Shown here one piece after another: positions 6,788 to 64,000 of a stretch of DNA of 64,000 bases. How positions within the stretch are numbered: the stretch's first letter is position 1; each line of letters opens with the position of its first letter. A program made the translations under genes and the position numbers. The notes below the pieces were generated by a model. It saw only the letters and a list, made by a program, of their open reading frames with translations. It did no database searches and was not told the origin of the DNA. The stretch spans positions 2,296,045 to 2,360,044 of the forward strand of contig NZ_CP090898.1 in the NCBI RefSeq assembly GCF_023078835.1. Reading direction: 5' to 3'. Origin of the DNA: Synechococcus sp. NB0720_010 (GTDB lineage: Bacteria > Cyanobacteriota > Cyanobacteriia > PCC-6307 > Cyanobiaceae).

Positions 6788-7966
6788 TTACTCCCCTGCG
6801 CAGCGGTGCAGTTCGGCCAGGGCCAGCTGCAGCAGTTCGCGCCGCTCCTCCAGCAGCGCGCTGTCCGCCAATTCGCTCTGAAGGCGATGGGCGACGTTGG
6901 CAATCAAGGGGTCACTGGGGCGCTGGCTGAGGGCCTTGAGTTCGATTGGATCGGGAGCCTGGGCGCAGCGCCCGCGGCGCTTGAGCCGCAGCAGTTGTGC
7001 CTCCAACCGCTCGATCAGCGCGTCGTAGCGGCGATGACCCTCGAGGCTCAGGCTGCCGCTCTCCTCCAGCAGCAGAAGATGTTGTCCTGGCTCGTCGCCC
7101 AGGAGCGTCTGGAGCTGCGCTTCAAAGCGCTCCAGCTCCGCGTCGCTGCTCAGCCGCACCGCCGTGGCGTGCCATTGCAGCATCGCAGTCGCCAGAGGGG
7201 TCACCTTGGGAAGACTCCCCCGCTCAGCGCGCACCGCCAGGACGACTCCATCGCGGTAGGCGTCATGGCGAGGAAAGCGATCGGGCTCCGGGGTCCCGCT
7301 GTACCAGGCCTTGGCATGGACCTGCTTGAGGCCATGCCAATCCCCCAGGGCGACGTAGTCCAGCTGCTCCAGTAGGCCAGCGTCCAGGCGCAGTTGGTTT
7401 TGGGCGCTGGTGGGATTCTCCTCATCGGCATCCAGGTCATCGGAGCCAAAACCATGGATGGAGCCATGGGCAAGCAGGAGGCGAGGGCGGTCGCTGGGCA
7501 GTGAGGCCCAATCGATCGATCGCACCCATGCGGTGGGGTCCTGGCTGTCCGTGCGGCGCAACAGCGGGCAGGGCAGCACGATCGCCTGCTCCAGCACGAG
7601 CGGTTCGCGGCTCAGGAGCACCTGGAGGTTGGGGGCCCGGCGCTGGCACTCCTCCTGGAAAAAACGTTGGTGCCAGACACTGCCTGGGGCACCGTGGTCA
7701 TGGTTGCCAGGAATCACCAGCACCGGGCAGCTCAGGCGGCCGAGGGCCTGGCAGACCGCACTGATGTCACTGCTGCTGGGGGTTGGTGAGTCAAAGAGAT
7801 CACCGGCGACCAGGAGGAAGGCGGCCGCCTGCTCCTTGGCGCATTGACCGATTTGATCGATGGCGGCGATGCGCACCTGCCGCAACTTGGCCCGCTTGTC
7901 GGGGTCCTGGACCCGGGCGTAGGGCTTGCCGATCTGCCAGTCGGCGCTGTGCAGAAAGGACAGCAT
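6788..7966 (-). CDS. SbcD/YhaO-like DNA repair exonuclease
   Basis: A 392-residue calcineurin-like phosphoesterase. The metal-binding motifs appear in order: FLHSADWQIG (D-x-H equivalent), VAGDLFDSP (GDxxD), IPGNHDHG (GNHD) and GDWHGLKQV near residue 215. This is the nuclease subunit paired with the downstream ATPase. I chose the ATG at 7966, giving MLSFLHSADW, because family members begin immediately before the first motif. The longer reading from 8005 adds 13 proline-rich residues. Confidence 0.85.
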   Translation of the reverse strand: MLSFLHSADWQIGKPYARVQDPDKRAKLRQVRIAAIDQIGQCAKEQAAAFLLVAGDLFDSPTPSSSDISAVCQALGRLSCPVLVIPGNHDHGAPGSVWHQRFFQEECQRRAPNLQVLLSREPLVLEQAIVLPCPLLRRTDSQDPTAWVRSIDWASLPSDRPRLLLAHGSIHGFGSDDLDADEENPTSAQNQLRLDAGLLEQLDYVALGDWHGLKQVHAKAWYSGTPEPDRFPRHDAYRDGVVLAVRAERGSLPKVTPLATAMLQWHATAVRLSSDAELERFEAQLQTLLGDEPGQHLLLLEESGSLSLEGHRRYDALIERLEAQLLRLKRRGRCAQAPDPIELKALSQRPSDPLIANVAHRLQSELADSALLEERRELLQLALAELHRCAGE

Positions 7967-9060: not shown

Positions 9061-9873
9061 TTAGTTGTCGAGGGCCTGGCGCAGTTGGCCGCAGAACTGA
9101 CCCGCAGCAGCAGCAATGTCCCCCTGCTGGCTGTGGCTTTCAGCCATGACCTTGACCAGGGCGCTGCCGACGATGGCGCCATCGGCGCCCCAATCACGAA
9201 CTTGGCGCGCCTGCTCGGGGCCGGAGATGCCAAAGCCAACGGCGACTGGGGTTGGCCCCATTCCTTTGAGTTGATGCACCAGGGTGGCGACCCGGTTTTC
9301 CAGGGTGGTGCGGACACCGGTGACCCCGGTGACGCTGACCAGGTAGGTGAAGCCGCGGCTGGCCTGGGCGATGCGGGCCATGCGATCGCTCGGGGTGGTG
9401 GGCGCCACCAGCAGCACGAGATCCAGCCCTGCCGCTTCGGCAATGGCCGACAGCTTTTCTGCTTCTTCCAGGGGGAGATCAGGCACCACCAGGCCGGCGG
9501 CACCCGCCGCTGCGGCATCGCGGCAGAAGGTCTCCATGCCGCGGTTCAGCAAGGGGTTGCTGTAGGTGAAGAGGATCACCGGGATGGTGAGCTCGCCCTT
9601 GAGGCTGCGGAGCATCTCCAGCACCCGACCAGGGGTGGTCCCGCTGCCCAGTGCTCGGCTGGCCGCGGCTTGGATCACCGGACCATCGGCCAGCGGATCG
9701 CTGTAGGGAATCCCCAGTTCGATCATGTCGGCCCCGCCGGCCTCCAGGGCCAAGAGGGTCGAGCGGGTCTGCTCCAGATCCGGATCGCCGGCCATCAGGA
9801 ATGGCATCAAGGCGCAGCGGCCCTCGGTCTTGAGCTTCTGAAAACGCTGCTGGATCGGGGTGCTGGTGGTCAC
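9061..9873 (-). CDS. trpA: Tryptophan synthase alpha subunit
   Basis: A 270-residue TIM barrel that cleaves indole-3-glycerol phosphate to indole and glyceraldehyde 3-phosphate; indole passes to TrpB. Hallmarks are [11 protein letters not shown], the catalytic Glu/Asp region ([20 protein letters not shown]), the loop [11 protein letters not shown] and the phosphate-binding GFGISGPEQ. The length is normal. It lies downstream of ndhL and a DUF3007 gene, a recurrent cyanobacterial arrangement. Confidence 0.97.
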
Positions 9874-9906
9874 GGCAGCGTGAGATCTGCAGCTGAGCCT
9901 ATGGCC

Positions 9907-10245
9907 TCAGCCTTCGCTGTCCTGGGCGAGTTCCCGCATGAGCTTCTCTTGCTCTTCGGGGCTGAGGGCGTCAAAACGCTTCTGCAGCTCTTCGTCGGTG
10001 GCAGCGTCGTAACCCGAGCGGTAGCGGCGGCGCTGCTCCATGTAGGTCATGTTTCCGGTCACGACCCGGAACAAGTAAGAGCCCGTCCAGACCAGGACGA
10101 TGACCACCAGTAGGGCCTGGGCGGCAATGCCCGCACTAAACCCTTCAAAGCCAGCGGCTTGGAAGCCCCAGTAACCGATGCCGCCGATGCCAAAGATGGC
10201 CAGGCCGGCCAGAAGCGCCTTGCCGCGTGTGATGCCGGATCCCAT
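9907..10245 (-). CDS. DUF3007 family membrane protein
   Basis: 112 residues with two membrane segments (ALLAGLAIFGIGGIGYWGF and AQALLVVIVLVWTGSYLF) and a charged cytosolic tail (DEELQKRFDALSPEEQEKLM). It is conserved next to ndhL in cyanobacteria and plant-plastid relatives; the role is unproven. The ATG at 10245 shares a base with the ndhL stop (TAATG), so the two are coupled. Confidence 0.82.
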   Translation of the reverse strand: MGSGITRGKALLAGLAIFGIGGIGYWGFQAAGFEGFSAGIAAQALLVVIVLVWTGSYLFRVVTGNMTYMEQRRRYRSGYDAATDEELQKRFDALSPEEQEKLMRELAQDSEG

Positions 10246-10496
10246 TAAGTGTTGCCCTGGCCCTGCAGACGCAGATTCACGAAGGGGGCGAAGACGATCA
10301 GTCCGGGGAAGAACAGGAAGACCAGTCCATAGACCGCCGTGCGCTCGATCTTGCCCATCACGGTCCAGCGCTTGGTCATCCAAGCCATCAGAGCCAGGGG
10401 GACTGCCACCAGGTAGGCACCGGCGAGTGCCCCGTAGGCGGCCAGCACCAGCAGGGTCTCACTGGTGAGGGAACTGAGGAACCCGGGCAGCGGCAC
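10245..10496 (-). CDS. ndhL: NAD(P)H-quinone oxidoreductase subunit L
   Basis: A small membrane subunit of the cyanobacterial NDH-1 complex, which passes ferredoxin electrons to plastoquinone in respiration and cyclic flow. Two to three hydrophobic segments are visible ([20 protein letters not shown] and [20 protein letters not shown]). The start is uncertain: the open frame extends upstream through the opposing tRNA gene, which cannot be coding for this protein. A GTG at 10496 (83 residues, normal size) or a TTG at 10520 is likely. Confidence 0.85.
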
Positions 10497-52398: not shown

Positions 52399-52415
52399 GG
52401 GGGTGGGGGCCGGAG

Positions 52416-53063
52416 TTAGCGGTGCTCAATCAGATCGGAGGCGGAGTAGCGGACCTTGGCGAGGCCGGCGTACTTGTCCTCGGCGCTGCGGTAGCCGCAG
52501 GCGCAGACCACGCAGCTTTGGTAATCGCTGCTCTCGAGTCCCAGGATCTTGTCGTAGTCGCTGGGACTGAAGCCCTCGATGGCGCAGGTGTCCACCTCCA
52601 ACAGGGCGGCGCTGGTGAGCAGGTTGCCCAGGGCGATATAGACCTGGTTGGCGCTCCACTGGCCAATGGCCTGGCTACGGGGTCCGTCGATCAGATCCAC
52701 CTGAATCATCTGGCGGTACCCCTCGAGCAGGCTGGCGTCGATGCCCCGGGTTGAGGCGGTGGCCTCGATCAGCCGATCGGCATCGGCGGCCAGGATCTCC
52801 CGCTTCTTCAGCAGCACCACCAGGTGGGAGCAGTCGGTGATTTGAGATTGGTTCCAGGAGTGGGGGCGTAGCTGGGCCCGCAGCTCGGCGTCGGTGATGA
52901 CCAAGAACTTCCAGGGCTGGAGCCCATAGGACGAGGCCGTTAGAACCAAGGCGGACTCAAGCGCCTCCCAGGTTTCAGTCGGGATGCGCTGGCTGGGATC
53001 GAAGGTCTTCGTGGCGTAGCGCCACTGCAGGGCCTGCAGCAGTTGCGGGGAGGCCGTCGCCAT
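52416..53063 (-). CDS. Nitroreductase-family FMN oxidoreductase
   Basis: 215 residues from the ATG at 53063. The fold signatures are QALQWRYATKTFD (FMN contact), ALVLTASSYGLQPWKFLVIT and VYIALGNLLTSAALLEVDTC with AIEGF near residue 165. It probably reduces nitro compounds, quinones or related acceptors with NAD(P)H. The exact substrate is unknown. Confidence 0.88.
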   Translation of the reverse strand: MATASPQLLQALQWRYATKTFDPSQRIPTETWEALESALVLTASSYGLQPWKFLVITDAELRAQLRPHSWNQSQITDCSHLVVLLKKREILAADADRLIEATASTRGIDASLLEGYRQMIQVDLIDGPRSQAIGQWSANQVYIALGNLLTSAALLEVDTCAIEGFSPSDYDKILGLESSDYQSCVVCACGYRSAEDKYAGLAKVRYSASDLIEHR

Positions 53064-53094
53064 CAAGGTTCAGTCGTTGGCCACAGCTTCCCAT

Positions 53095-54078
53095 TCAGCC
53101 CGCAGCACCTGAGGGCCCGATCTGACCGCTGACCCAGTAGCGGACCCGTTCCGGATGCTGATCGAGGTACGCGTCCACGGCGGACTGGGCCGTGTCTTGA
53201 TGGGCCTTCAACAACACCTCGGCCAGATCGGCATCGGGGATCCGAAAGCGCGTCAAGAAATCGGTGACCTCAGGGGCGAGAGCACTGAGGTCTGGCTGGC
53301 CGATGGCGTGGATCCATTCAGTTCCTCCGAAGGCGCGTTTGGGGTCGCTGAGGAATCGCAGTTTGTAGCGAGCAAACATCCAGTGGGGTGTCCAGCTGGT
53401 GACCACGACCCAACGACGCTCGCGGATGGCCTGGTCCAGCACGGCACTCATCGCTGCACTGCTCGAGGCCACCAACTTGATCGCGCTGAGGTCGTAGTCC
53501 TTCAGGGCGACCTGTGAGAGCTGATTCAGGCCCGATCCCGGGTCGATCCCTTGAACCTGATGGTCAAAGCGCGCAGCAATGGAGGCTTGGCGGAGATCGC
53601 CAATGGAGTTGACCAGATCCGGATCGACGTAGTCGGGGACGACCCAGCCCAGCCGTCCGGAGTACATCGGACCGAGGTCTAAGACCCGATCGCGGACGCG
53701 CTTCCAGTAGTCCCGATGGGTCAGGGGAAGCCAGGCCATCAACATCAAATCCAGATCCCCTCGGGCAACGGAGGCGTATTGGATGCCGATGTCGGCCAGG
53801 ACGCGTTCGACGGGCCAGCCCAGTTCCGTCTCGATCAGTTGCTTGGCCATCAGGCTGATCACCTCCGCATCAGCCCAGGGGGACCAGCCCAGTCGTAAGG
53901 GTCTCCGCTCAGTCCGGCCCTGCGCCTGAATTGTGCTTTGAGCCAGGGATTCGCTGCTGTTGCGTTGGCCCCCCTGTTGTTGGCGACCCAACTGGACCAA
54001 GCTCGCCAGCGAGAGTCCCGCCAGGCCCATGCCGCCCACCAGGGCGCTGCGCCGTGACCAGCGTGGAGCGTCGCTCAT
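53095..54078 (-). CDS. proX: Glycine betaine/proline-type ABC substrate-binding protein
   Basis: 327 residues from the ATG at 54078. A twin-arginine-like export signal (SRRSALVGGMGLAGLSLASL) replaces the usual lipobox, then LRLGWSPWADAEVISLMAKQ starts the OpuAC-type domain. Aromatic residues that could form the betaine cage lie in SPWADA, DYWKR, YSGRLGWVVPDY and TSWTPHWMF. Its start overlaps the permease stop by four bases. It is the last gene of the V-W-X operon. Confidence 0.9.
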   Translation of the reverse strand: MSDAPRWSRRSALVGGMGLAGLSLASLVQLGRQQQGGQRNSSESLAQSTIQAQGRTERRPLRLGWSPWADAEVISLMAKQLIETELGWPVERVLADIGIQYASVARGDLDLMLMAWLPLTHRDYWKRVRDRVLDLGPMYSGRLGWVVPDYVDPDLVNSIGDLRQASIAARFDHQVQGIDPGSGLNQLSQVALKDYDLSAIKLVASSSAAMSAVLDQAIRERRWVVVTSWTPHWMFARYKLRFLSDPKRAFGGTEWIHAIGQPDLSALAPEVTDFLTRFRIPDADLAEVLLKAHQDTAQSAVDAYLDQHPERVRYWVSGQIGPSGAAG

Positions 54079-54935
54079 CGTTGTCTCCGGGCGTTGCTGG
54101 GTGAGAGGCCCTGGCTCAGGCGATCGAGAATCACCGCCAGGATCACCACCGCGATTCCCCCCTCGAAGCCCAGGCCAACATTGAGCTGTTGAATGCCTCT
54201 GAGCACGACATCGCCGAGGCCGCCTCCGCCGATCATTGAGGTGATGACCACCATGGAGAGCGCCAACATGATGGTCTGGTTGACCCCGCTCATCACCGTC
54301 GGTAGAGCGCTGGGGAGTTGCACCATCCACAGCAGTTGCAGGTCGCTGCAACCAAAGGACCGTCCGGCCTCCACCAGATCTGTGGGCACCTGAGTGATCC
54401 CCAGGTAGGTGAGCCGCACGATCGGAGGCATGGCGAAGATCAAGGTGGCGATGATCGCGGGAACGGCTCCTGTGCTGAACAACATCACCGCCGGGATGAG
54501 GTAGACGAAGGCCGGCATCGTCTGCATCAGATCCAGTCCGGGGCGCAGCAGTCTCCAGAGCCAGGGCTGACGGGTCCCAAGCACCGCCAGGGGAAAGCCC
54601 AGAAGCAAGGCCAACAGTGAGGAGGTGATCACGAGGGCCAAGGTGGCGAGCATCGGCTCCCAAAGACCCAGGGCCAGGACCAGGTTCAAGCCCAGCAGGC
54701 TGAAGAGGGCAAAGCTGCCTCCCACCAAACGCCACCCCACCACGGCAACGACCAGGGCAAACAGCCATGGCGCGGGTTGAGCCAGGACGAACTCAAGCGT
54801 TGCGGTCAATCGCTCAATGGCGACCTGGACCACGTCGAAGAGGCCCTGGCCGTTGTTTAAGAGCCACTCCACAGCGGCATCTACCCCTAGCCCCAGCGGC
54901 CCGGCCTGCTCGAGACTCGCCAGCGTGAGCACCAT
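54075..54935 (-). CDS. proW: Glycine betaine/proline-type ABC permease
   Basis: 286 residues with about seven membrane helices and the EAA loop (LVEAGRSFGCSDLQLLWMVQ) that docks to the ATPase, followed by LPSALPTVMSGVNQTIMLAL and the conserved SMIGGGGLG. The first 75 residues are an N-terminal extension with one helix. The start is coupled to the proV stop (TGATG). Confidence 0.92.
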   Translation of the reverse strand: MVLTLASLEQAGPLGLGVDAAVEWLLNNGQGLFDVVQVAIERLTATLEFVLAQPAPWLFALVVAVVGWRLVGGSFALFSLLGLNLVLALGLWEPMLATLALVITSSLLALLLGFPLAVLGTRQPWLWRLLRPGLDLMQTMPAFVYLIPAVMLFSTGAVPAIIATLIFAMPPIVRLTYLGITQVPTDLVEAGRSFGCSDLQLLWMVQLPSALPTVMSGVNQTIMLALSMVVITSMIGGGGLGDVVLRGIQQLNVGLGFEGGIAVVILAVILDRLSQGLSPSNARRQR

Positions 54936-55963
54936 CAGCCCTGCTCCTTAAGGGCCTGCAGCAGCCCCCTTGGTGTCACCACTCCCAATGGTCGTCGTTC
55001 AGGGTCCAGAACGGGGGTGGGCCAGGGGTTGCTTGAGACCGCATGAATGGCCTCGTTCAGCAGGAGTTCCGAGGGGAGAGCTCCGGCGGCTGAAGCCTCG
55101 ATCCAAATGTTCTCTGGGTTGCGTAGGCCTTGGAAGCGTCCCTCGGAATCCAGGCTGAGAGTGATCCCCAGGTCTTCGGGGATGGGTTCGACGATCTGCC
55201 GCAGGGTGAGCACCGAACCCCGATCGACCGTTTGAAAGAAGGCCCGGACCGCGGGGTTCGCCGGTGCTTCAAGGAGCTCCTGGGGTGTTCCGCACTGCAG
55301 CACCTCCCCCGATTGCATCAGGGCGATGCGATCGCCAATGCGGATGGCCTCATCGAGGTCATGGGAGATGAACACCACTGTGCGTCGCTGTTCGGCCTGC
55401 AGGTCCAGCAGTAGGTCCTGCATGTCTCGGCGGATGAGCGGATCGAGGGCGGAGAAGGCCTCATCCATCAACAGGATCGGGGGATCCAGCGCCAGGGCCC
55501 GGGCCAGTCCCACCCGCTGCTGCATCCCTCCGGATAGTTGGGCTGGCTTCTGCTTCAACTGGCTGCCCAGCCCCACCCGCTCCAGGGCACGTCTGGCTTG
55601 CTTCTGACGCTCCGCCCTGGGAACGCCGGCCACCTCCAGGCCAAACGCAGCGTTGTCGAGAACGCTGCGTTGCGGGAACAGGGCAAAGGACTGGAAGACC
55701 ATGGCCATGGCGTTCCGGCGCAGTTGGTTGAGCGCCTTTGGAGAGAGTGTCGCCAGGGCCTGGCCGCGCACTTGCACGGATCCCGAGCTGGGCTCGATCA
55801 GTCCGTTAATCATGCGCAACAAGGTGGACTTCCCCGAGCCCGAGAGGCCCATCACCACAAAGATCTCGCCGGGTTGGATCGTGAGGGAGACCTGCTGGAC
55901 AGCCGCTTTGGGCTGCCCCAAGAACTGCTTTGAAACGGCTTGAAGTGTGATCTCTGCAGACAC
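54935..55963 (-). CDS. proV: Glycine betaine/proline-type ABC ATPase
   Basis: 342 residues: Walker A GLSGSGKSTLLRM, signature LSGGMQQRVGLARAL, Walker B ILLMDEAFSALDP and switch ISHDLDEAI. The C-terminal 100 residues form a CBS-like regulatory region (AIHAVSSNPWPTPVLD, RRPLGVVTPRGLL), as in osmoregulated OpuA/ProU ATPases that sense ionic strength. It heads the operon and is divergent from the betaine synthesis genes. Confidence 0.93.
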   Translation of the reverse strand: MSAEITLQAVSKQFLGQPKAAVQQVSLTIQPGEIFVVMGLSGSGKSTLLRMINGLIEPSSGSVQVRGQALATLSPKALNQLRRNAMAMVFQSFALFPQRSVLDNAAFGLEVAGVPRAERQKQARRALERVGLGSQLKQKPAQLSGGMQQRVGLARALALDPPILLMDEAFSALDPLIRRDMQDLLLDLQAEQRRTVVFISHDLDEAIRIGDRIALMQSGEVLQCGTPQELLEAPANPAVRAFFQTVDRGSVLTLRQIVEPIPEDLGITLSLDSEGRFQGLRNPENIWIEASAAGALPSELLLNEAIHAVSSNPWPTPVLDPERRPLGVVTPRGLLQALKEQG

Positions 55964-56281
55964 CTCAAAGCCGAAGCACTGCGGCGACCCTAGCGATCAA
56001 AAGCTCAATCAACAGGCTGAAGGGTGATCGTCAGGTCTTTAGCAAGTTCAAACATTTGCTCGAATGGCCTTTGCTCACTTTGATGTCGGCGACTGAGCGG
56101 CAATCAGATCACTTTGCAGCTTGAAGCAACCACTGACAGCCCTAGGCCTCATCGATAGGTTGCGGCCATGGCTTAGTTCACGACTTCGTGAACTGTGTCC
56201 GGAGGCCTCTTCAGAGGTGATCCCCCAGCCCTATTGCTGAGCCCTGAAGGTTTGCGTCTATCGGTGGCTCCCGAGGATTGA
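55964..56281. other. Divergent regulatory region between proVWX and betaine synthesis genes
   Basis: 318 bases without a gene. It contains the 20-bp palindrome described separately, a smaller CCTCTTCAGAGG repeat near 56205, and AT-richer stretches (for example 56035-56085) that may be promoters for both directions. No riboswitch is recognised. Confidence 0.6.
56175..56194. promoter_or_regulatory. Perfect 20-bp palindrome, candidate operator
   Basis: AGTTCACGA and TCGTGAACT are exact inverted copies around a CT centre. It lies 88 bases before the GSMT start and 212 bases before proV. The length and symmetry fit a dimeric repressor site for salt- or betaine-dependent control. Confidence 0.6.
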
Positions 56282-57154
56282 ATGACGACATCCCACCGCA
56301 CACAAGCATCCTCGGCCCATCGGCCGAAGACTGCTGGAGCAATGGATGAGCAGCGGTTTGGTGCCGCTCCTGAATCTGTTCGTGAGACCGATCACTATCA
56401 GCAGGAGTACATCGAGCAGTTCGCTGATCGATGGGATCGCCTGATCGATTGGGAGGCCCGCGCGCAGGCGGAGGGTGATTTCTATATCCGGATCCTGCGC
56501 GAGCACGGGGTGAAGTCCGTGCTGGACGTCGCGACGGGGACGGGGTTCCACTCCATTCGCCTCCTCCAAGAAGGTTTTGATGTGGTGAGTGCCGATGGCA
56601 GTCCCAACATGCTCGCCCGCGCCTTCCGCAATGCCCGAGATCGTGATCAGCTCCTGCGGACTGCCCAGGCGGACTGGCGCTTTCTGAACCGGGATATCCA
56701 CGGCACGTTTGATGCTGTGATTTGTTTGGGTAATTCTTTTACGCACCTGTTTCGCGAGCGTGATCGGCGTAAATCTCTGGCGGAGTATTACGCCGTCTTG
56801 AAGCACAACGGCCTGCTGATTCTCGACCATCGCAATTACGACCGCCTGCTTGAAGGTGGTGCCGCCGTGAAGCAGGGGAAGGGGACGGTCTATTGCGGAG
56901 AGGATGTCTCAGTGAGCCCCGATTGTGTGGATGAGGGTCTTGCTCGCTTCCGCTATGCCTTCAGTGATGGCAGTACTTTCCACCTCAACATGTTCCCGCT
57001 TCGCTATGGCTATGTGCGTCGCTTAATGCGCGAGGTGGGTTTCCAGAAAATCACCAGTTACGGCGATTACCAGCGCGGCAAGGATGATCCTGACTTTTAT
57101 GCCCATGTGGCCCATAAGGCCTATGAGGTTGATGGCGATACAACGGTGATCTAG
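56282..57154 (+). CDS. Glycine/sarcosine N-methyltransferase
   Basis: 290 residues; the first two steps of betaine synthesis, glycine to sarcosine to dimethylglycine, with SAM as donor. The SAM motif is VLDVATGTGFHSIRLLQEGF, then VSADGSPNML. VICLGNSFTHLF and LILDHRNYDRLL are typical of GSMT. The N-terminus has about 35 extra residues before YIEQFADRWDRLIDWEARAQ. It is separated from the next methyltransferase by two bases. Confidence 0.95.
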   Translation: MTTSHRTQASSAHRPKTAGAMDEQRFGAAPESVRETDHYQQEYIEQFADRWDRLIDWEARAQAEGDFYIRILREHGVKSVLDVATGTGFHSIRLLQEGFDVVSADGSPNMLARAFRNARDRDQLLRTAQADWRFLNRDIHGTFDAVICLGNSFTHLFRERDRRKSLAEYYAVLKHNGLLILDHRNYDRLLEGGAAVKQGKGTVYCGEDVSVSPDCVDEGLARFRYAFSDGSTFHLNMFPLRYGYVRRLMREVGFQKITSYGDYQRGKDDPDFYAHVAHKAYEVDGDTTVI

Positions 57155-57156
57155 TC

Positions 57157-58008
57157 ATGACTCAGACCCAGTTCTCAGTCGCTGAGCGCACGGCTTCGGA
57201 CTACTACGACAGCGTCGATGCTGATCGCTTCTATGAAGAGGTCTGGGGTGGCGAAGACATTCACATCGGTCTCTATGACTCCGATGCCGAGGCCATCGCA
57301 CCTGCCAGTCAGCGCACGGTCAATGCCTTAATTGAATTGATCGGAACGCTCCCACCTGGGGCGACGGTTGTTGATTTGGGTTCGGGCTACGGCGGCGCCG
57401 CCCGCCGCCTCGCCAAGGAGTTCGGGGCCCGCGTTGAGGCGATCAATATTTCCGCCGTTGAGAACGCTCGCCATTGCCAGCTCAATGAACGCGCTGGATT
57501 GCAAGGGCAAATCCAGGTGCATGACGCCTCCTTTGAGGACGTTCCGCTTCCGGCCGGTTGTGCCGATGTGGTCTGGAGTCAGGACGCCATCCTTCACTCA
57601 GGCGACCGGCAGAAAGTCCTTCAAGAGGCTGCGCGCCTGCTGAAGCCGGGGGGGGTCATGGTCTTGACCGATCCGATGGCCGCCGATGGGGTGGAGGCCG
57701 CGTCCCTCACGGCCATCCTCGATCGCATTCATCTCCCGGACCTCGGGTCACCGGATCGCTATCAGCAGTGGGCGGGCCAGGCCGGACTCGTGCGGGAGGT
57801 CTGGCAGGACCAGACGGCGATGCTGGTTCGCCATTACAGCCGTGTTCGCGAGGAGCTCACGCGACGGGAGCAGGAGCTGCAGGCCAAGATCAGCCCGGAA
57901 TACCTCCAGCGCATGGCCGCGGGCCTGGGGCACTGGATTGAAGGAGGGCAGCAGGGGCGCCTGAGTTGGGGGTTAATGCGCTTCCGCAAGCCAGCTGCAG
58001 AGGTCTGA
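57157..58008 (+). CDS. Dimethylglycine N-methyltransferase
   Basis: 283 residues; the last methylation of betaine synthesis (some enzymes also use sarcosine). SAM-binding VVDLGSGYGGAARRLAKEFG, then VEAINISAVENARH and SQDAILHSGDRQKVLQEAAR. FYEEVWGGEDIHIGLY at residues 25-40 is the family hallmark. It follows GSMT by two bases and shares its stop (TGATG) with the start of a 41-residue membrane peptide. Confidence 0.95.
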   Translation: MTQTQFSVAERTASDYYDSVDADRFYEEVWGGEDIHIGLYDSDAEAIAPASQRTVNALIELIGTLPPGATVVDLGSGYGGAARRLAKEFGARVEAINISAVENARHCQLNERAGLQGQIQVHDASFEDVPLPAGCADVVWSQDAILHSGDRQKVLQEAARLLKPGGVMVLTDPMAADGVEAASLTAILDRIHLPDLGSPDRYQQWAGQAGLVREVWQDQTAMLVRHYSRVREELTRREQELQAKISPEYLQRMAAGLGHWIEGGQQGRLSWGLMRFRKPAAEV

Positions 58009-58133
58009 TGGATTCGTTCGCGGGCGCTGTCTTGATCTTTGTGGTGGGCGGTGTCGTCACCTTGGCGACCACCGTGATGGTGATTCAGGGCCATCTGCAC
58101 TGGCGTGGCCGGGATCCCTGGGGGGAGGGCTAA
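58008..58133 (+). CDS. 41-residue membrane peptide, possible symporter accessory subunit
   Basis: ATG at 58008 overlaps the methyltransferase stop and the peptide ends three bases before the symporter start. It is one membrane helix (AVLIFVVGGVVTLATTVMVI) followed by HLHWRGRDPWGEG. Small one-helix proteins beside SSS symporters have been noted in other prokaryotes as accessory subunits. The placement here makes that the best guess. Confidence 0.65.
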   Translation: MDSFAGAVLIFVVGGVVTLATTVMVIQGHLHWRGRDPWGEG

Positions 58134-58136
58134 GTC

Positions 58137-59576
58137 ATGGCGTTTGTTCCCCTGCTGGCTGTTCAACCCTTCTTGGCCCCCGGGATCGCCTGGGCCCTGG
58201 TGGTGATTTTTTCGGTCCTTTGGATCGCCCTTGGGGTCTCCTGGGGACGCCGGGGTTCTGGCGATGCCGATGACTACATGCTGGCCGGCCGCAACATCGG
58301 TTTGGCCCTGAGCACAGCCACCTTGATGGCGTCCTGGGTGACCGGAAACACCACCTTGCTGGCGCCTGAGTTCGGCTATCGCAACGGTCTCTGGGGGATG
58401 TTCAGCTATGCCCTGGCCGGCCTGGGCCTGGTCCTGTTTGCACCCTTGGCTCTGCGGATCAAAACGCTGATGCCCAAGGGGCGCACCAGCGGCGACTTCA
58501 TCCGCCTGCGCTATGGCCGAGCCGCCTGGTGGGTCTTCATGGTGATCACGGCGATCTACACCCTGGGCTTCCTGGTGACCCAGGCGATGGGGGCCGGGAT
58601 CCTGCTGGAGGCCCTCTCCGGCTTCGACTATCGGCTCGGGATGGTTGTCGTCATCGGTGTCTCCACGATCTACACCCTCTATGGCGGCATGCGCGCCGTG
58701 GTGGGAACGGACTTCATTCAGTCCCTGCTGATCATGGGCCTGCTGGTCTTGGTCGCTGTTCTTGCCCTGCAGCAGTTCCCGGTACAGGAGCTCCACCGGG
58801 AACTGGCGGCGCAGCATCCAGAGCGCCTGAATTTGCTGTTGCCCGCTGGCTTGTTGATTGCTTGGAACTCCGCCCTCTTCTCCATGGGAGAGGTGTTTCA
58901 CAACAACATCTGGTGGTCACGGGTCTTCTCCAGCCGCGCCTCCGTGGTGTTTGCCTCGTTTGTGCTGGGCGGTTTGGCCTGGATGACGGTGCCGCTGGTG
59001 ACCGGTTCGATCGGCCTGGTGGCGCTCGCGCAGGCGGTGGATCTGCCCCAGGTGAACATGCTCTTCCCGGTGGTGGCCTCCCAGCTCTTGGGCGCCGGTG
59101 GTGCAGCGCTGGTGTTTGTGGTGGTCTTTGCCTCCTTGACCTCCACCCTGGATTCCCTCTTGGCGTCGACGGCGGATTTGGTGGCGGAGGACGTGGTCTT
59201 CAAGTTGCTGAACCCCAACTTGAGTGATGCCCAGTTGCGGCAGGCCACCCGCTTGGTGGTGCTGGGTTTGGGGCTGTTGACCCTGCTGCTCTCCTGGCCG
59301 CGGCTCGACTCTCTGGCCTCTGTGCTGTTCTTCACCGGTGCCCTGGTGGCGTCCACGATTTGGCCGGTGGCCTACGGGCTCTACTGGCCTAGCGCCAACC
59401 GCTGGGCGGCGATTGCGGCGATGGTCTCAGGCAGCGCCGTGGGCTTAGGCGCCTATTTCCTGATCGCTCCCTACTGCGCAGCTCTGCTGTCTGCGGCGGT
59501 GTCCGCAGTGGTCATGGCCGTCGGTACCCAGCTCCAGCCGGAGCGTTTCAACTGGTTGACCCTGAAGGAGGGATAG
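58137..59576 (+). CDS. Sodium:solute symporter (SSS family)
   Basis: 479 residues with about thirteen helices. The family core is visible: DDYMLAGRNIGLALSTATLM at the first inverted repeat, ASWVTGNTTLLAPEFGYRNG, TLGFLVTQAMGAGILLEALS and FASLTSTLDSLLASTADLVAED, where the Na+-site Ser/Thr pair lies. SSS proteins carry proline, choline, urea, sugars or osmolytes. The osmolyte island suggests such a solute. Tiny membrane proteins flank it on both sides with 2-3 base gaps. Confidence 0.9.
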   Translation: MAFVPLLAVQPFLAPGIAWALVVIFSVLWIALGVSWGRRGSGDADDYMLAGRNIGLALSTATLMASWVTGNTTLLAPEFGYRNGLWGMFSYALAGLGLVLFAPLALRIKTLMPKGRTSGDFIRLRYGRAAWWVFMVITAIYTLGFLVTQAMGAGILLEALSGFDYRLGMVVVIGVSTIYTLYGGMRAVVGTDFIQSLLIMGLLVLVAVLALQQFPVQELHRELAAQHPERLNLLLPAGLLIAWNSALFSMGEVFHNNIWWSRVFSSRASVVFASFVLGGLAWMTVPLVTGSIGLVALAQAVDLPQVNMLFPVVASQLLGAGGAALVFVVVFASLTSTLDSLLASTADLVAEDVVFKLLNPNLSDAQLRQATRLVVLGLGLLTLLLSWPRLDSLASVLFFTGALVASTIWPVAYGLYWPSANRWAAIAAMVSGSAVGLGAYFLIAPYCAALLSAAVSAVVMAVGTQLQPERFNWLTLKEG

Positions 59577-59578
59577 GG

Positions 59579-59803
59579 ATGAAACGTTGGTCGCTCAAAA
59601 CCCGTGTTGCCCTTGCTGCGGCAGCCCTGGCTCTGGCCTTGCCCGCCGCCCGAGCGGCGCAGTCGACGGACTCCCCGCGCTGGCTGGTGGATCTACCGCT
59701 GTTGCGCCTGGTGATTTATGGAAGTGTGGCGGGGTTGGCGCTTTCTGTGCTGGTTCTTCTGCTGATTTGGTGGAACGAATGGAGGCGCGGCGATGTCTGG
59801 TAA
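59579..59803 (+). CDS. Small membrane protein downstream of the symporter
   Basis: 74 residues with a signal-like first helix (TRVALAAAALALALPAARA) and a second helix (LLRLVIYGSVAGLALSVLVL) ending LIWWNEWRRGDVW. It starts two bases after the symporter stop and is probably co-translated with it. It may be a second accessory subunit. The similar end (W-x-x-G-D/R-x-W) of the 41-residue peptide is a vague resemblance only. Confidence 0.68.
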   Translation: MKRWSLKTRVALAAAALALALPAARAAQSTDSPRWLVDLPLLRLVIYGSVAGLALSVLVLLLIWWNEWRRGDVW

Positions 59804-59992: not shown

Positions 59993-61111
59993 ATGACTGC
60001 ACTCCACTCCGTCAAGACGAGTACCGGCGCTGACGCACCCGTGCGTTTTGATCCACTGGGGCCGGATGTCTTTGGCGCAGCCTCTCCCCAGGCCCTGTTG
60101 GGGGCGATTCAAGAGGACGGCGAGGCGCTCCAGGATCTGGTGGGGCAGCACGTGATCTCGATTCAGCCCTTCCGGCCCGAGACCCTGCTGCAGTTGTTTC
60201 GTCTGGCAGCCAAGTTTGAGAGCAATCCCGATCGCTATACGGCCCACAACACGCCGTTGAAGGGAAAGATTTTGATCAACGCCTTCTACGAACCCAGCAC
60301 CCGCACGCGGCTGTCCTTTGACAGCGCCTGGCACCGTCTGGGCGGCGATTCGATCAACATCACCGACCGCGCCACGACGGGCCTGGCGAAGGGGGAGTCG
60401 CTGGAAGACGTCGCCCACATGTTCAACAACTACGGCGACTGCATCGTTCTGCGCGATACCGACTCCCAGGCCATCTATGCGATGACCGACACCCTGCGGA
60501 TTCCGATCATCAACGCCGGCAATGGCATTGATGAACACCCCACCCAGGCAATGGCCGACCTCTACACGATGCTCAAGTGGCGCCCCGCCTTGGCGTCCCC
60601 TGAGGTCCCCGAGGATCAGCGGGCGCGCATCGGCATCGTTGGCATCCCCAGCCGCATGCGCACGGTTCGCTCACTGCTGCGGATCCTGGCCAAATTCCCG
60701 CAGATGGTGGAGGAGTTGGTCCTCATCCATGACCCGGCCAACGATGCCAGAGAGGACCTCTTTGATCGCGGCCAGCTGGAGGAGTTGCAGCAGGCGGGTC
60801 TGAAGGTGCGCTGCACCGGAGACCTGCAGGGCGAGATCCCCGGTCTGGATGTCATCTACATCAACGCCATTGCTTGGGTGGGCGATAGCTATGAGGTCCA
60901 CGGCAACAGCTTTCGGCTGACGCGGGATCTGCCCTACAAGCCGGACGCCATCGTGTTGCATCCCCTGGCCCGTGGGCCGGAACTGAGTACTTGCCTCGAT
61001 GACACCCCCCACAACTGGTACTTCAGTCAGGCCCGGGGGGCGGTCTTCCTGCGCATGGCTCTGTTGACCTGCATGGTGGACCGCACCAACCGGGTCATGG
61101 ATGTGATCTGA
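59993..61111 (+). CDS. Aspartate/ornithine carbamoyltransferase-family protein, altered amino-acid site
   Basis: 372 residues, longer than usual PyrB, with about 55 extra at the N-terminus. Carbamoyl-phosphate residues are kept: PSTRTR (S102-T105), HPTQ (H182, Q185) and KGES. The arginine matching E. coli PyrB R167, which holds the alpha-carboxylate, is R223. The motif TRVQ, whose R229 and Q231 bind the aspartate side chain, is replaced by INAIA (290-294), and HPLPR is HPLAR. A housekeeping PyrB is therefore unlikely; the acceptor is probably another amino acid. The operon partner is an AsnB-like amidotransferase 13 bases downstream. The ATG at 59993 is preferred to the GTG at 59936. Confidence 0.85.
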   Translation: MTALHSVKTSTGADAPVRFDPLGPDVFGAASPQALLGAIQEDGEALQDLVGQHVISIQPFRPETLLQLFRLAAKFESNPDRYTAHNTPLKGKILINAFYEPSTRTRLSFDSAWHRLGGDSINITDRATTGLAKGESLEDVAHMFNNYGDCIVLRDTDSQAIYAMTDTLRIPIINAGNGIDEHPTQAMADLYTMLKWRPALASPEVPEDQRARIGIVGIPSRMRTVRSLLRILAKFPQMVEELVLIHDPANDAREDLFDRGQLEELQQAGLKVRCTGDLQGEIPGLDVIYINAIAWVGDSYEVHGNSFRLTRDLPYKPDAIVLHPLARGPELSTCLDDTPHNWYFSQARGAVFLRMALLTCMVDRTNRVMDVI

Positions 61112-61124
61112 GGAGGACGAAGGG

Positions 61125-63161
61125 ATGTGTGGAATTGGTGGGGTCTTCAGCACCAGGGCGGATCAGCCCGTTGACCCGCAGCTGTTGGTCAACATGGCTG
61201 CGATCCAGGAGCATCGCGGTCCCGATGGTTTTGGCTACCGCACGCTGGATGAAGCCGGCGTGGGCTTCTGTCATGCCCGCCTCTCGATCATTGATCTGAA
61301 TGAGACCCGGGCCCGTCAACCCTTCCTGAGCGCAGAGGCGGGGGCCGGCGCCCGGGTCCTGATGGCCCACAACGGCGAGTTCTATGACTTTCAGCGGATC
61401 CGCGCCGATCTGACGGCCCGCGGTGTTCGCTTCAGCAGCAAGAGCGATTCCGAGATCCTGCTGCGTCTCTATCAACAGCAGGGTTTAGGGGCGACGCTGC
61501 CGCAATTGCGCGGTGAGTTCGCCTTCGCGATCTACGACGAGGCCGGCGATGTGTTGCACCTGGTCCGGGATCGCTTCGGGATCAAACCCCAGTACTGGAC
61601 GATCACATCCCAGGGCTTGGTCTTTGGCTCGGAACTCAAGGTCCTGTTTGCCCATCCGGCGGTCGAGCGGCGTTTCACCTCCGAAGGGCTCTTCCACCAG
61701 TTGATGCAAACCATGGTCCCCGGGACCACGGCCTTCGCGGGCATCCATCAGGTGCCGCCTGGCCATGGCATCAGTGTTCGCCGGCGCAACGGCAACCTTG
61801 AGGTGGAGACCTGGAAGTACTGGGACATGGACTTCCCGCGTCAGGGCGAGCGGGACAGCAGTAAGAGTGAAGCCGACCACATCGAGGCGATCCGTGCCGC
61901 CCTGCTGGAAGCGGTGGAGTTGCGGATGGTCGCTGATGTCCCGGTGGGTTGCTACCTCTCCGGAGGCATTGATAGCTGCTCAATCCTGGGGCTGGCCGCT
62001 GCCGTCAGCCAGAGCCCGGTGAAGGCCTTCACCATTGGCTTTGACGACGCGCGCTACGACGAGTCGCCCATCGCCCAGGAGATGGCCGAGGCCACAGCCG
62101 CTGAGCAGGACGTCATGCGTCTCTCGGGCAAGGAGCTCTATGGCTGGATGGAGCGCACCCTCTGGCACACGGAGCGCACGATCTACAACACCCTGGCGGT
62201 GGCCAAGTTCTTGATGAGCCGCCACGTCAACAGCGTCAACTACAAGGTGGTGATGACCGGAGAGGGCTCCGATGAGCTCTTCGGTGGCTATCCCGCCTTC
62301 CGCCGCGACATGTTCCTGCACGGTCTGCAGGATCTGCCGGAGCCGGAGCGCAAAGCCTGGGAAGACCTGCTGCAGCAATCGAATGCCTTGGTGCAGGGGG
62401 CGATGTTGGCGGCTGATCAAGTGGATGACCCCGACCTCGATGCGGTCGTGGGCTTCACCCCCAGTTGCCTCCAGCCTTGGTTGGCCTGTGCGCCCTTGGT
62501 GCCGGACCTGCTCGCGGAGGCCCATCGCTCGGTCCTTTCGGACTATTCGCCGGGCCAGGCCATCGCCAAGACCCTGGATCCCGATCAGCTGGAGGGGCGC
62601 CACGCCCTCGATAAGGCCCAGTACGTCTGGATCAAGACGATGCTGGAGGGCCAGATCCTCACCTGGGGTGGTGACCGGGTGGACATGGCCAATTCCATGG
62701 AGGCGCGTCCGGCCTTCTTGGATCACCACCTGGCGGCAGCGGCGGTTCAGGTCCCACCTGAGCTGCGGATCAAGGGCAAGACCGAGAAGTACGTCCTGCG
62801 CGAGGCCATGGCGGGCCTTTTGCCGGAGGTGCTCTACAAGCGCGAAAAATTTGCCTTCATGGCTCCGCCGGCCCACACCGAGCCCGAGAAGTGGGAGCAG
62901 ATGAAGCAGCTGGCCGATGACTACCTGAGTGATCAGGCGATCGAGGCGGCGGGACTCCTGAGCGTCGCGGGTGTTCGGGCCCTCTTCGCCCGCCATGACG
63001 ACCCGGCCACGACCGATGCGGACCGCGTTCAGATGGACGCCATGATCAACCACCTGCTTGGCGTGCAGATGTTGCACCGGATGTTCATTGCCGCGGATGT
63101 GCCGGCCCAGGCCCGCGCCAAGGCCGATGCCCTCGGCTGGCACCCGGCCGCTGCGGCTTAA
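61125..63161 (+). CDS. AsnB/AsnO-type glutamine-dependent amidotransferase
   Basis: 678 residues. The N-terminal glutaminase has the Cys2 nucleophile (MCGIGG), HRGPDG and MAHNGEFYDF. The synthetase domain has the ATP pyrophosphatase loop SGGIDS at 279-284 and MTGEGSDELFGGY. It forms an amide on a carboxylate activated by ATP. A good ribosome site (GAGGAGGA) precedes the ATG. It could be plain asparagine synthetase, but relatives (AsnO) amidate the alpha-carboxyl of acylated glutamine peptides to make osmolytes; pairing with a carbamoyltransferase in an osmolyte island favours a specialised role. Confidence 0.88.
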   Translation: MCGIGGVFSTRADQPVDPQLLVNMAAIQEHRGPDGFGYRTLDEAGVGFCHARLSIIDLNETRARQPFLSAEAGAGARVLMAHNGEFYDFQRIRADLTARGVRFSSKSDSEILLRLYQQQGLGATLPQLRGEFAFAIYDEAGDVLHLVRDRFGIKPQYWTITSQGLVFGSELKVLFAHPAVERRFTSEGLFHQLMQTMVPGTTAFAGIHQVPPGHGISVRRRNGNLEVETWKYWDMDFPRQGERDSSKSEADHIEAIRAALLEAVELRMVADVPVGCYLSGGIDSCSILGLAAAVSQSPVKAFTIGFDDARYDESPIAQEMAEATAAEQDVMRLSGKELYGWMERTLWHTERTIYNTLAVAKFLMSRHVNSVNYKVVMTGEGSDELFGGYPAFRRDMFLHGLQDLPEPERKAWEDLLQQSNALVQGAMLAADQVDDPDLDAVVGFTPSCLQPWLACAPLVPDLLAEAHRSVLSDYSPGQAIAKTLDPDQLEGRHALDKAQYVWIKTMLEGQILTWGGDRVDMANSMEARPAFLDHHLAAAAVQVPPELRIKGKTEKYVLREAMAGLLPEVLYKREKFAFMAPPAHTEPEKWEQMKQLADDYLSDQAIEAAGLLSVAGVRALFARHDDPATTDADRVQMDAMINHLLGVQMLHRMFIAADVPAQARAKADALGWHPAAAA

Positions 63162-63188
63162 ACGGTCGCAACGGTTACGCAGTACTTC

Positions 63189-63220
63189 GCCCTCCTGGCG
63201 GATGGTGGGGGGGCTTTTTT
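63189..63220 (+). terminator. Intrinsic terminator after the amidotransferase gene
   Basis: GCCCTCC and GGGGGGC pair over seven bases (one G-T) around a 12-base loop, followed by six T residues, 27 bases after the stop. It separates the carbamoyltransferase-amidotransferase pair from the hydrolase gene. Confidence 0.8.
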
Positions 63221-63238
63221 GAACGTGCAGGTCTGCGG

Positions 63239-64000
63239 TTGGTTCTCTCTGCCCCGGGCTCCCAAACCCTTGCGCCCACCGCTCAACTGAAGAGACCCTC
63301 GGTCAACGCCATGCGCCTCCTGGCCTCCTTGGAGGCCATGGCCGAAGTCGGTCTTCAGCCAGATGGTTCCATTTGCCGGCGCGGCTTCAGCGCCGAGGAC
63401 CGTCAGGGCCGTGAACTGCTGAGTGAATGGCTGATCGACGCGGGGATGAGCCTGCGCATCGATGCCGCCGGCAATCTGATTGGTCGCCTGGAGGGCTCAG
63501 AGCCCAACCTCCCCGCGCTGGTGAGCGGCTCACATCTGGACACCGTTCCAACCGGTGGTCGCTACGACGGCACCCTCGGCGTCTTGGCTGGACTGGAACT
63601 GGTCCGCTGCCTGAAGGATGCCTCGCTTCAGCTGCGGCACCCCTTTGAGCTGATCGTCTTTGCCGATGAGGAGTCCACGATGGTGGGCTGCAAAGGGATG
63701 GCCGGAACGGCCAGCGGCGACCCCAGCGATTACACCACCAGTAACGGTGATCCGATTGAGCGGAACCTGGCTCGCCTGGGTGGGGATTGGGAGCGCCTGA
63801 CCACTGCGGCCCGCAGCGATGACGCCATCGCTGCTTTTCTCGAGCTCCACGTGGAGCAGGGTGCTGTTCTGGAGCAACGCGGCGACAGCATTGGTGTCGT
63901 TCAAGGGGTGGTCGGCCAGCGCCGTTTCACGATCCGCGTTTGCGGGCAGGCCAACCACGCCGGTACGACGCCGATGGATCAGCGGCAGGATGCCCTGGTG
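63239..64000 (+). CDS. N-carbamoyl-L-amino-acid hydrolase / allantoate amidohydrolase family, truncated by window end
   Basis: 254 residues are visible of a family about 400-430 long. It is a peptidase-M20-type binuclear metalloenzyme: SGSHLDTVPTGGRYDG (first metal ligands H and D), VFADEESTMVGCKGMAGT (catalytic Glu pair) and LELHVEQGAVLE (His ligand), then NHAGTTPM. It removes a carbamoyl group, releasing amino acid, CO2 and ammonia. The first ATG (63311) falls inside the conserved start (relatives have a similar NGERLWxSL), so a TTG at 63239 is more likely. It is a candidate catabolic partner of the upstream carbamoyltransferase. Confidence 0.88.
   Translation, partial: MVLSAPGSQTLAPTAQLKRPSVNAMRLLASLEAMAEVGLQPDGSICRRGFSAEDRQGRELLSEWLIDAGMSLRIDAAGNLIGRLEGSEPNLPALVSGSHLDTVPTGGRYDGTLGVLAGLELVRCLKDASLQLRHPFELIVFADEESTMVGCKGMAGTASGDPSDYTTSNGDPIERNLARLGGDWERLTTAARSDDAIAAFLELHVEQGAVLEQRGDSIGVVQGVVGQRRFTIRVCGQANHAGTTPMDQRQDALV

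Follow-up and report, generated by a model that had tools for sequence, protein, structure and literature searches.

A candidate gene cassette for the osmolyte N-carbamoyl-glutamine amide in picocyanobacteria, Ectothiorhodospira and other proteobacteria

What would a carbamoyltransferase, an asparagine-synthase-type amidotransferase and an N-carbamoylase do together when their genes lie side by side and next to genes for glycine betaine? The question is raised by a stretch of 64,000 bases (hereafter the window), positions 2296045-2360044 of the genome of Synechococcus sp. NB0720_010, which is a single contig of 2,410,448 bases (NZ_CP090898.1) and has a G+C of 60-66% in the window. The original prediction saw in these genes a pathway for an N-carbamoyl amino acid amide osmolyte, and this reading gains support from a separate pyrB, from the conservation of the genes as a block and from their presence in the genus of a reported producer. 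We propose, with a probability of about 0.75 and on the strength of sequence comparisons, that the product is N-carbamoyl-glutamine amide (CGA): the cassette carbamoyltransferase (CTase) would carbamoylate glutamine, the amidotransferase (AsnL) would amidate the alpha-carboxyl, and an amidase together with an M20-family N-carbamoylase (Ncarb) would recycle the compound. Both the identity of the product and its osmotic role are what we infer from the genes, which are arranged as follows.

58137..59576, + strand: sodium/solute symporter (SSS, PF00474; Pfam match), proposed re-uptake carrier for leaked osmolyte
59579..59803, + strand: small protein of 74 amino acids with one transmembrane segment (assigned by eye) and no Pfam match, possible symporter partner
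59993..61111, + strand: CTase, 372 amino acids, aspartate carbamoyltransferase (ATCase) fold (Pfam and NCBIfam matches), proposed L-glutamine N-alpha-carbamoyltransferase
61125..63161, + strand: AsnL, 678 amino acids, asparagine-synthase-type (Asn_synthase match), proposed to amidate the alpha-carboxyl of N-carbamoylglutamine
63239 to about 64522 (63239-64000 in the window), + strand: Ncarb, M20-family N-carbamoyl-amino-acid amidohydrolase (profile and PDB matches)
about 64519-65238, beyond the window, same direction as the cassette: DUF1028 protein, proposed amidase

These six genes are all read in one direction, with a spacing of 13 bases between CTase and AsnL and with the reading frames of Ncarb and DUF1028 overlapping by ATGA; the final 522 bases of Ncarb and nearly all of DUF1028 fall outside the window. 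That the three enzymes first noticed stand side by side is confirmed by profile matches, spacing and linkage. The trio is therefore real, but it was an incomplete description, as the cassette also has a symporter, a small membrane protein and an amidase candidate.

The first finding that bears on the question is that the CTase is a relative of ATCase altered at the aspartate site. Its likeness to PyrB begins with the fold: the protein matches the Pfam families OTCace_N (141.4 bits) and OTCace (46.5 bits), and its predicted structure (mean pLDDT 85.2) finds ATCases in all 50 matches listed, with Z up to 33.7. However, it passes no curated NCBIfam cut-off, since its best model, TIGR00670, gives 196.9 bits under a cut-off of 236.95 and NF002032 gives 183.9 against 263; there are also weak matches to putrescine and YgeW carbamoyltransferase models. 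The active site tells the same double story in 146 cassette CTases (136 distinct), which were aligned to solved ATCases and to each other and are given here in ATCase numbering. K84, R105, H134 and Q137, which together with the STRT motif we take to form the ATCase carbamoyl-phosphate site, are kept in all 146 proteins, as is R167, presumably the residue for the alpha-carboxylate; STRT itself is kept in 145 and is lacking only from the frame-broken copy of genome G979. By contrast, the two residues that we assume to hold the aspartate side chain are gone, with R229 replaced by Ala (130), Ser (15) or Thr (1) and Q231 by Ala (134), Ser (11) or Val (1), and P268 is Ala in 146 of 146. Because R229 and Q231 are lost and R167 is kept, the expected acceptor is an alpha-amino acid whose side chain carries no charge and whose alpha-carboxyl is free, and because that carboxyl has to be free, carbamoylation would precede amidation. 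The same loss bears, by proxy, on efficient use of aspartate, which the original prediction had named as a refuting result.

The CTase is also an addition to a normal PyrB rather than a version of it. Whether the genome holds a second, canonical pyrB had been left by the original prediction as something to look up, and the gene is present at 1275492, its product passing both cut-offs (355.4 bits against 263 and 279.1 against 236.95). The source genome encodes three carbamoyltransferase-domain proteins in all, and exactly three OTCace_N matches were found in each of 14 named carriers, from Kangiella to Prochlorococcus MIT 9314; here and below, statements on named carriers come from a named-genome scan covering the best 80 of 201 CTase relatives. 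The carbamoyltransferases of the carriers are of ornithine, RxQ aspartate or cassette type. For the 14 named carriers, 30 of the 42 OTCace_N matches were obtained as loci, and the typing of 32 carbamoyltransferase loci gave 13 of RxQ, 10 of ornithine and 8 of cassette type, with one (L001) not read. RxQ is kept in 13 PyrB-type proteins, of which 12 belong to carrier genomes and the other to the source genome, so that 12 of the 14 named carriers, too, have a PyrB-type protein of their own. A quick tree built from 57 CTases of the cassette and 8 PyrB proteins keeps all the cassette CTases together on a single side (SH-aLRT 99), where the 18 from cyanobacteria form one group (SH-aLRT 99) nested among proteobacterial rows. 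This suggests that a single transfer may have brought the CTase into picocyanobacteria, with the root of the tree uncertain because the PyrB rows sit on long branches. Plasmids were rejected as a place to find close relatives of the CTase: the best 15 of 173 plasmid records are 30-35% identical to it and are pyrB where annotated.

The second finding is that CTase and AsnL travel together. Besides the named-genome scan, our samples comprised 251 genomes family-wide, 386 phylum-wide, 368 class-wide in the Gammaproteobacteria and 10 Ectothiorhodospira genomes. The CTase occurs in 43 of the 251 family-wide genomes (weakest E 5e-151, with no other genome matching at 1e-30 or better), in 16 of the 386 phylum-wide genomes, all within the same family, and in 22 of the 368 class-wide genomes, the chosen centre not counted. 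Among the best 80 relatives, the nearest named carriers to the window CTase are marine Synechococcus, followed by Cyanobium and Prochlorococcus; 38 are proteobacterial (one mislabelled metagenome-assembled genome, MAG, not counted), from Kangiella, Aliikangiella, Pleionea, Idiomarina, Pseudidiomarina, Aliidiomarina, Pseudoalteromonas, Ketobacter and Kordiimonas, with some MAGs without a genus. These genera, Kangiella to Kordiimonas, are marine or saline. Synechococcus RCC307 and Kangiella aquimarina DSM 16071 are among the named carriers. Linkage was counted over distinct loci with enough flank, ten duplicate loci having been dropped. Directly downstream of the CTase and on its strand, AsnL is found in every testable locus, 129 of 129 (67/67 cyanobacterial, 37/37 named proteobacterial, 15/15 class-sample and 10/10 Ectothiorhodospira), which answers in the affirmative the earlier question of whether the genes are kept as a block across genomes. 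The other genes vary. SSS is upstream on the same strand in 43/64 cyanobacterial, 37/37 named proteobacterial and 14/16 class-sample loci; Ncarb is within 6.5 kb in 92 of 109 loci (49/49 cyanobacterial, 19/36 named proteobacterial, 14/14 class-sample, 10/10 Ectothiorhodospira); DUF1028 is in 49/49 cyanobacterial loci and in none of the other three groups; and an isochorismatase-fold hydrolase is in 14/14 class-sample and 10/10 Ectothiorhodospira loci and in no cyanobacterial or named proteobacterial locus. CTase and AsnL being invariant and the rest variable, these two constitute the core of the cassette.

AsnL itself scores 304.9 bits with Asn_synthase and, at 412 bits, is over the cut-off of TIGR01536. 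Its N terminus carries MCG in 131 of 133 copies, truncated copies included, and SGGxDS in 129 of the 133; we take the MCG cysteine to be that of the glutaminase and SGGxDS to be the ATP site of the asparagine-synthase superfamily. Two further Asn-synthase proteins of similar size in the source genome are 28-33% identical to AsnL. The label "AsnO-like" in the original prediction did not hold up, and AsnO was rejected as an identity for AsnL on score, since TIGR03104, the curated model of the N-acetylglutaminylglutamine amide (NAGGN) amidotransferase, gives 289.6 bits under a cut-off of 570.1. The NAGGN operon (asnO-ngg in Sinorhizobium, PA3459-PA3461 in Pseudomonas aeruginosa) is nonetheless an instructive parallel. 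There too an asparagine-synthase-type enzyme amidates the terminal carboxyl of an N-blocked glutamine, the operon includes a hydrolase gene and a MarR-type regulator adjoins it; in P. aeruginosa, according to part of one report (PMC8070244), a MarR regulator controls the operon, and this control is needed for adaptation to high osmolarity. The differences are that the N-block would here be a carbamoyl group added by an ATCase-type enzyme, whereas NAGGN has an acetyl group and a second glutamine added by Ngg, and that the cassette has a symporter and different hydrolases. The cassette neighbours identified belong to families other than ngg, with no search aimed at ngg itself.

The third finding connects the cassette to a solute. 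CGA is a compatible solute reported from E. marismortui and described in 1991 (cited in Roberts 2005, PMC1224877, in the passage on this solute). The link to Ectothiorhodospira drawn in the original prediction is upheld by the genomes: the ten genomes of our sample are Ectothiorhodospira, all ten have the CTase, nine of them with an unbroken frame, and the gene order Ncarb - isochorismatase-fold hydrolase - CTase - AsnL is found in 10/10. Among 23 class-sample carriers, two have reaction-centre genes, and the PufM of one genome (G925) is closest, among solved chains, to 7vrj and 8wdu, which we take to be from Allochromatium. Two GMT matches occur in five of the ten genomes, and of these five only G925 and G976 are without betA; in both, the second GMT is the weaker match, and G925 has GSMT-SDMT-metK in a row. 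Local G+C in G925 and G976 is 0.67-0.69. Among the Ectothiorhodospira rows listed in the relevant part of a published survey, GMT-DMT-MAT with a B-type GMT and no choline oxidation genes is given for only E. mobilis DSM 237 and E. marismortui DSM 4180 (PMC7824335), for which G+C values of 68.3% and 68.2%, respectively, are tabulated (PMC8877833, relevant rows). By gene profile and G+C, G925 thus probably corresponds to E. marismortui DSM 4180 and G976 to E. mobilis DSM 237. A search for ectoine synthase gave no match in any of the ten genomes, but its control was also without a match. A genome of 2.0 Mb grouped with Ectothiorhodospira (G709; loci L217 and L219) has reaction-centre genes, with a PufM nearest to 9h19, 9k3q and 7eqd, and has no GSMT match.

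Taken together, the pathway we propose would begin with the CTase, which would move the carbamoyl group of carbamoyl phosphate onto L-glutamine at its alpha-amino group. Glutamine is proposed as the acceptor because of the Ectothiorhodospira link and because of the nearest model of the cyanobacterial carbamoylase. AsnL, using ATP and a second glutamine, would then amidate the alpha-carboxyl to give CGA, a molecule with no net charge, and the symporter, where present, would recapture what leaks out. For recycling, an amidase would remove the terminal amide, this being DUF1028 in cyanobacteria and the isochorismatase-fold cysteine hydrolase in Ectothiorhodospira and others, after which the M20 enzyme would remove the carbamoyl group and return glutamine. 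A swap of two unrelated hydrolases beside an M20 carbamoylase is what would be expected if the bonds cut are a carbamoyl and a plain amide. The best model for the full-length window Ncarb is ErtE N-carbamyl-L-glutamate amidohydrolase (NF058540), at 422.2 bits under a cut-off of 520, and the solved N-carbamoyl-L-amino-acid hydrolase 3n5f is among its two best PDB matches. The isochorismatase-fold protein has Asp, Lys and Cys motifs, presumably catalytic, in 26 of 26 copies (simple pattern), and its nearest named models, all far under cut-off, are biuret amidohydrolase, RutB, PRK11440 and nicotinamidase. In DUF1028, a Thr directly follows the start Met in 45 of 62 copies and not in the other 17 (pattern); the term DUF1028 was not found in the open-licence literature. 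Nine cyanobacterial loci (L051, L052, L053, L056, L060, L074, L075, L077 and L078) have DUF1028 inverted between AsnL and Ncarb.

Several observations weigh against this pathway. Family models cannot separate AsnL from an ordinary asparagine synthase, and two other such proteins of the source genome pass the same cut-off. In part of one published account, CGA is called a minor solute, so far of one organism (PMC3857566), whereas the cassette is in all ten Ectothiorhodospira genomes and in many marine bacteria. The CTase of G979 (L267, about 9454-10475) is split over two frames near residue 94-95, its neighbours being intact, which is either a real loss or a sequencing error. Ncarb is absent near 17 of 36 named proteobacterial loci, 16 of them Idiomarinaceae, a symporter stands beside the cassette in none of the ten Ectothiorhodospira loci, and the proteobacterial Ncarb proteins score best with the broad allantoate-amidohydrolase subfamily, not with ErtE. 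The role of DUF1028 as amidase is a guess. Finally, neither an enzyme assay nor a solute measurement for the cassette genes was found in the open-licence literature, nor was a report of CGA in picocyanobacteria, and the word "carbamoyl" is absent from the main texts of selected Synechococcus salinity studies.

Other explanations have to be judged against the same evidence. The cassette might make a different N-carbamoyl amino acid amide, for example of asparagine, alanine or glycine, with the CGA of Ectothiorhodospira being made elsewhere, or being made by the CTase only there. The loss of R229 and Q231 indeed argues only against a side chain held in the way of aspartate and points to no residue for a glutamine side chain, and proteobacterial CTases are 57-66% identical to the window CTase, so that specificity could have drifted. 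We nevertheless regard a different amide as unlikely, given that the reported solute of the one studied carrier genus is a glutamine compound, that an N-carbamyl-glutamate enzyme is the closest model for the cyanobacterial carbamoylase and that active-site residues are nearly uniform across the CTase family. It is still less likely that the same or a similar molecule is instead a reserve of nitrogen or carbamoyl groups, or a scavenged nutrient. Such a role would be in keeping with the nitrogen content of CGA, four nitrogens to six carbons, with the hydrolases and symporter that many cassettes include, and with streamlined Prochlorococcus, which retain CTase, AsnL, Ncarb and DUF1028 without an adjacent symporter; however, it is the biosynthesis pair that is invariant and the hydrolases that are variable, CGA is described as a compatible solute (PMC1224877, in the passage cited above), and the cassette is occasionally linked to betaine genes and to MarR-type genes.

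The remaining two explanations fare worse. The symporter, the hydrolases and the weak matches to putrescine and YgeW models might point to a catabolic system, in which an imported ureido compound is split and a reversed carbamoyltransferase forms carbamoyl phosphate for ATP; catabolic carbamoyltransferases do exist. This is very improbable, as the inseparable partner of the CTase is of a glutamine- and ATP-consuming amidotransferase type with its motifs intact, which fits synthesis, and as hydrolases are missing near many CTase copies. The original prediction had itself named, as an alternative, a chance grouping of ordinary genes of pyrimidine, asparagine and hydantoin metabolism, and the best generic names of the proteins (aspartate carbamoyltransferase, asparagine synthase, allantoate/hydantoin hydrolase) would agree with it. 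Such a chance assembly of housekeeping genes is contradicted by the evidence and we rejected it: AsnL adjoins the CTase in every testable locus across phyla, the genome has a PyrB of its own, the CTase is an extra enzyme in all 14 named carriers, the aspartate-binding residues are lost in every copy, and the CTases form a group apart from PyrB in the tree.

If CGA synthesis by the cassette is correct, these would be the first genes for a solute described in 1991; in line with the original prediction, which knew of no assigned genes, none were found in the open-licence literature, although a paper in a subscription journal could exist. It would also mean that a nitrogen-rich solute of some of the ocean's most abundant phototrophs has a sequence signature precise enough for its spread to be mapped and its release into seawater measured. 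Database names would have to be corrected, as the CTases are liable to be called aspartate carbamoyltransferase on family score despite the separate PyrB-type enzyme in 12 of the 14 named carriers and in the source genome.

Several details of the cassette in individual groups deserve mention. The 74-amino-acid protein has a tblastn match at E <=0.01 in 37 cyanobacterial cassette loci, duplicates included. Most proteobacterial loci have a different small protein with one transmembrane segment ahead of SSS; in 24 of 28 clustered proteobacterial loci (L124-L162) a secreted-looking small protein with one C-terminal transmembrane segment (assigned by eye) precedes the symporter, and this protein, which is without an NCBIfam match, may be a symporter subunit. 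A promoter and terminator scan did not find a promoter-like site, and terminators were at chance level. Prochlorococcus MIT 9314 and many single-cell Prochlorococcus (L118 and, mostly, L098-L117) have CTase, AsnL, Ncarb and DUF1028 without an adjacent symporter; presence in Prochlorococcus looks patchy, with one match among the listed genomes of genus group g17. One picocyanobacterial genome (G197; L049 and L050) holds two complete copies of the cassette, and the picocyanobacteria-type cassettes in a Gammaproteobacteria MAG (L090) and a Trichodesmium MAG (L114) are probably binning errors.

What, lastly, of the betaine genes beside the cassette? In the window they comprise the following, given for context only.

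56282..58008, + strand: GSMT and SDMT for betaine synthesis, GSMT at 56282 over its cut-off and SDMT at 57157 a best match under its cut-off
betaine locus, - strand: ABC transporter with an OpuAC betaine-binding domain (profile match)

The betaine locus next to the trio is thus as described in the window, but elsewhere the two are seldom neighbours: a GSMT gene stands within 8 kb of the cassette in 2/49 cyanobacterial loci (the window locus itself excluded from the GSMT counts), 0/36 named proteobacterial, 1/14 class-sample and 0/10 Ectothiorhodospira loci. Adjacency to betaine genes was therefore rejected as a fixed feature of the cassette, both on this rarity and on a genome without betaine genes at the same spot. 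That genome (G017; L043) is from a close relative, with a CTase that is 92% identical; from its methyltransferase gene at 5170 to its symporter at 7664, nothing matched a gene for betaine synthesis or transport, and the betaine block at 52400-58100 of the window therefore looks like a separate movable unit beside the cassette. In another genome (G850), GSMT-SDMT stand directly after AsnL, an arrangement unlike that of the window.

MarR-type genes, among which we count ectR, also occur beside the cassette. In 9 of the 10 Ectothiorhodospira loci Ncarb is preceded on its own strand, at a distance of 164-309 bases, by such a gene (one copy confirmed with Pfam). MarR-like genes occur in 23 other loci, but there the distance to a cassette gene ranges from 3 to 5754 bases and most are encoded on the other strand, so that we give them less weight and use only the Ectothiorhodospira arrangement as evidence. 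Ectoine and glycine betaine clusters likewise combine genes for compatible-solute synthesis with transporters, and some ectoine clusters have ectR according to the part of a published survey that deals with them (PMC7824335), but their enzymes and products are unrelated to those of the cassette.

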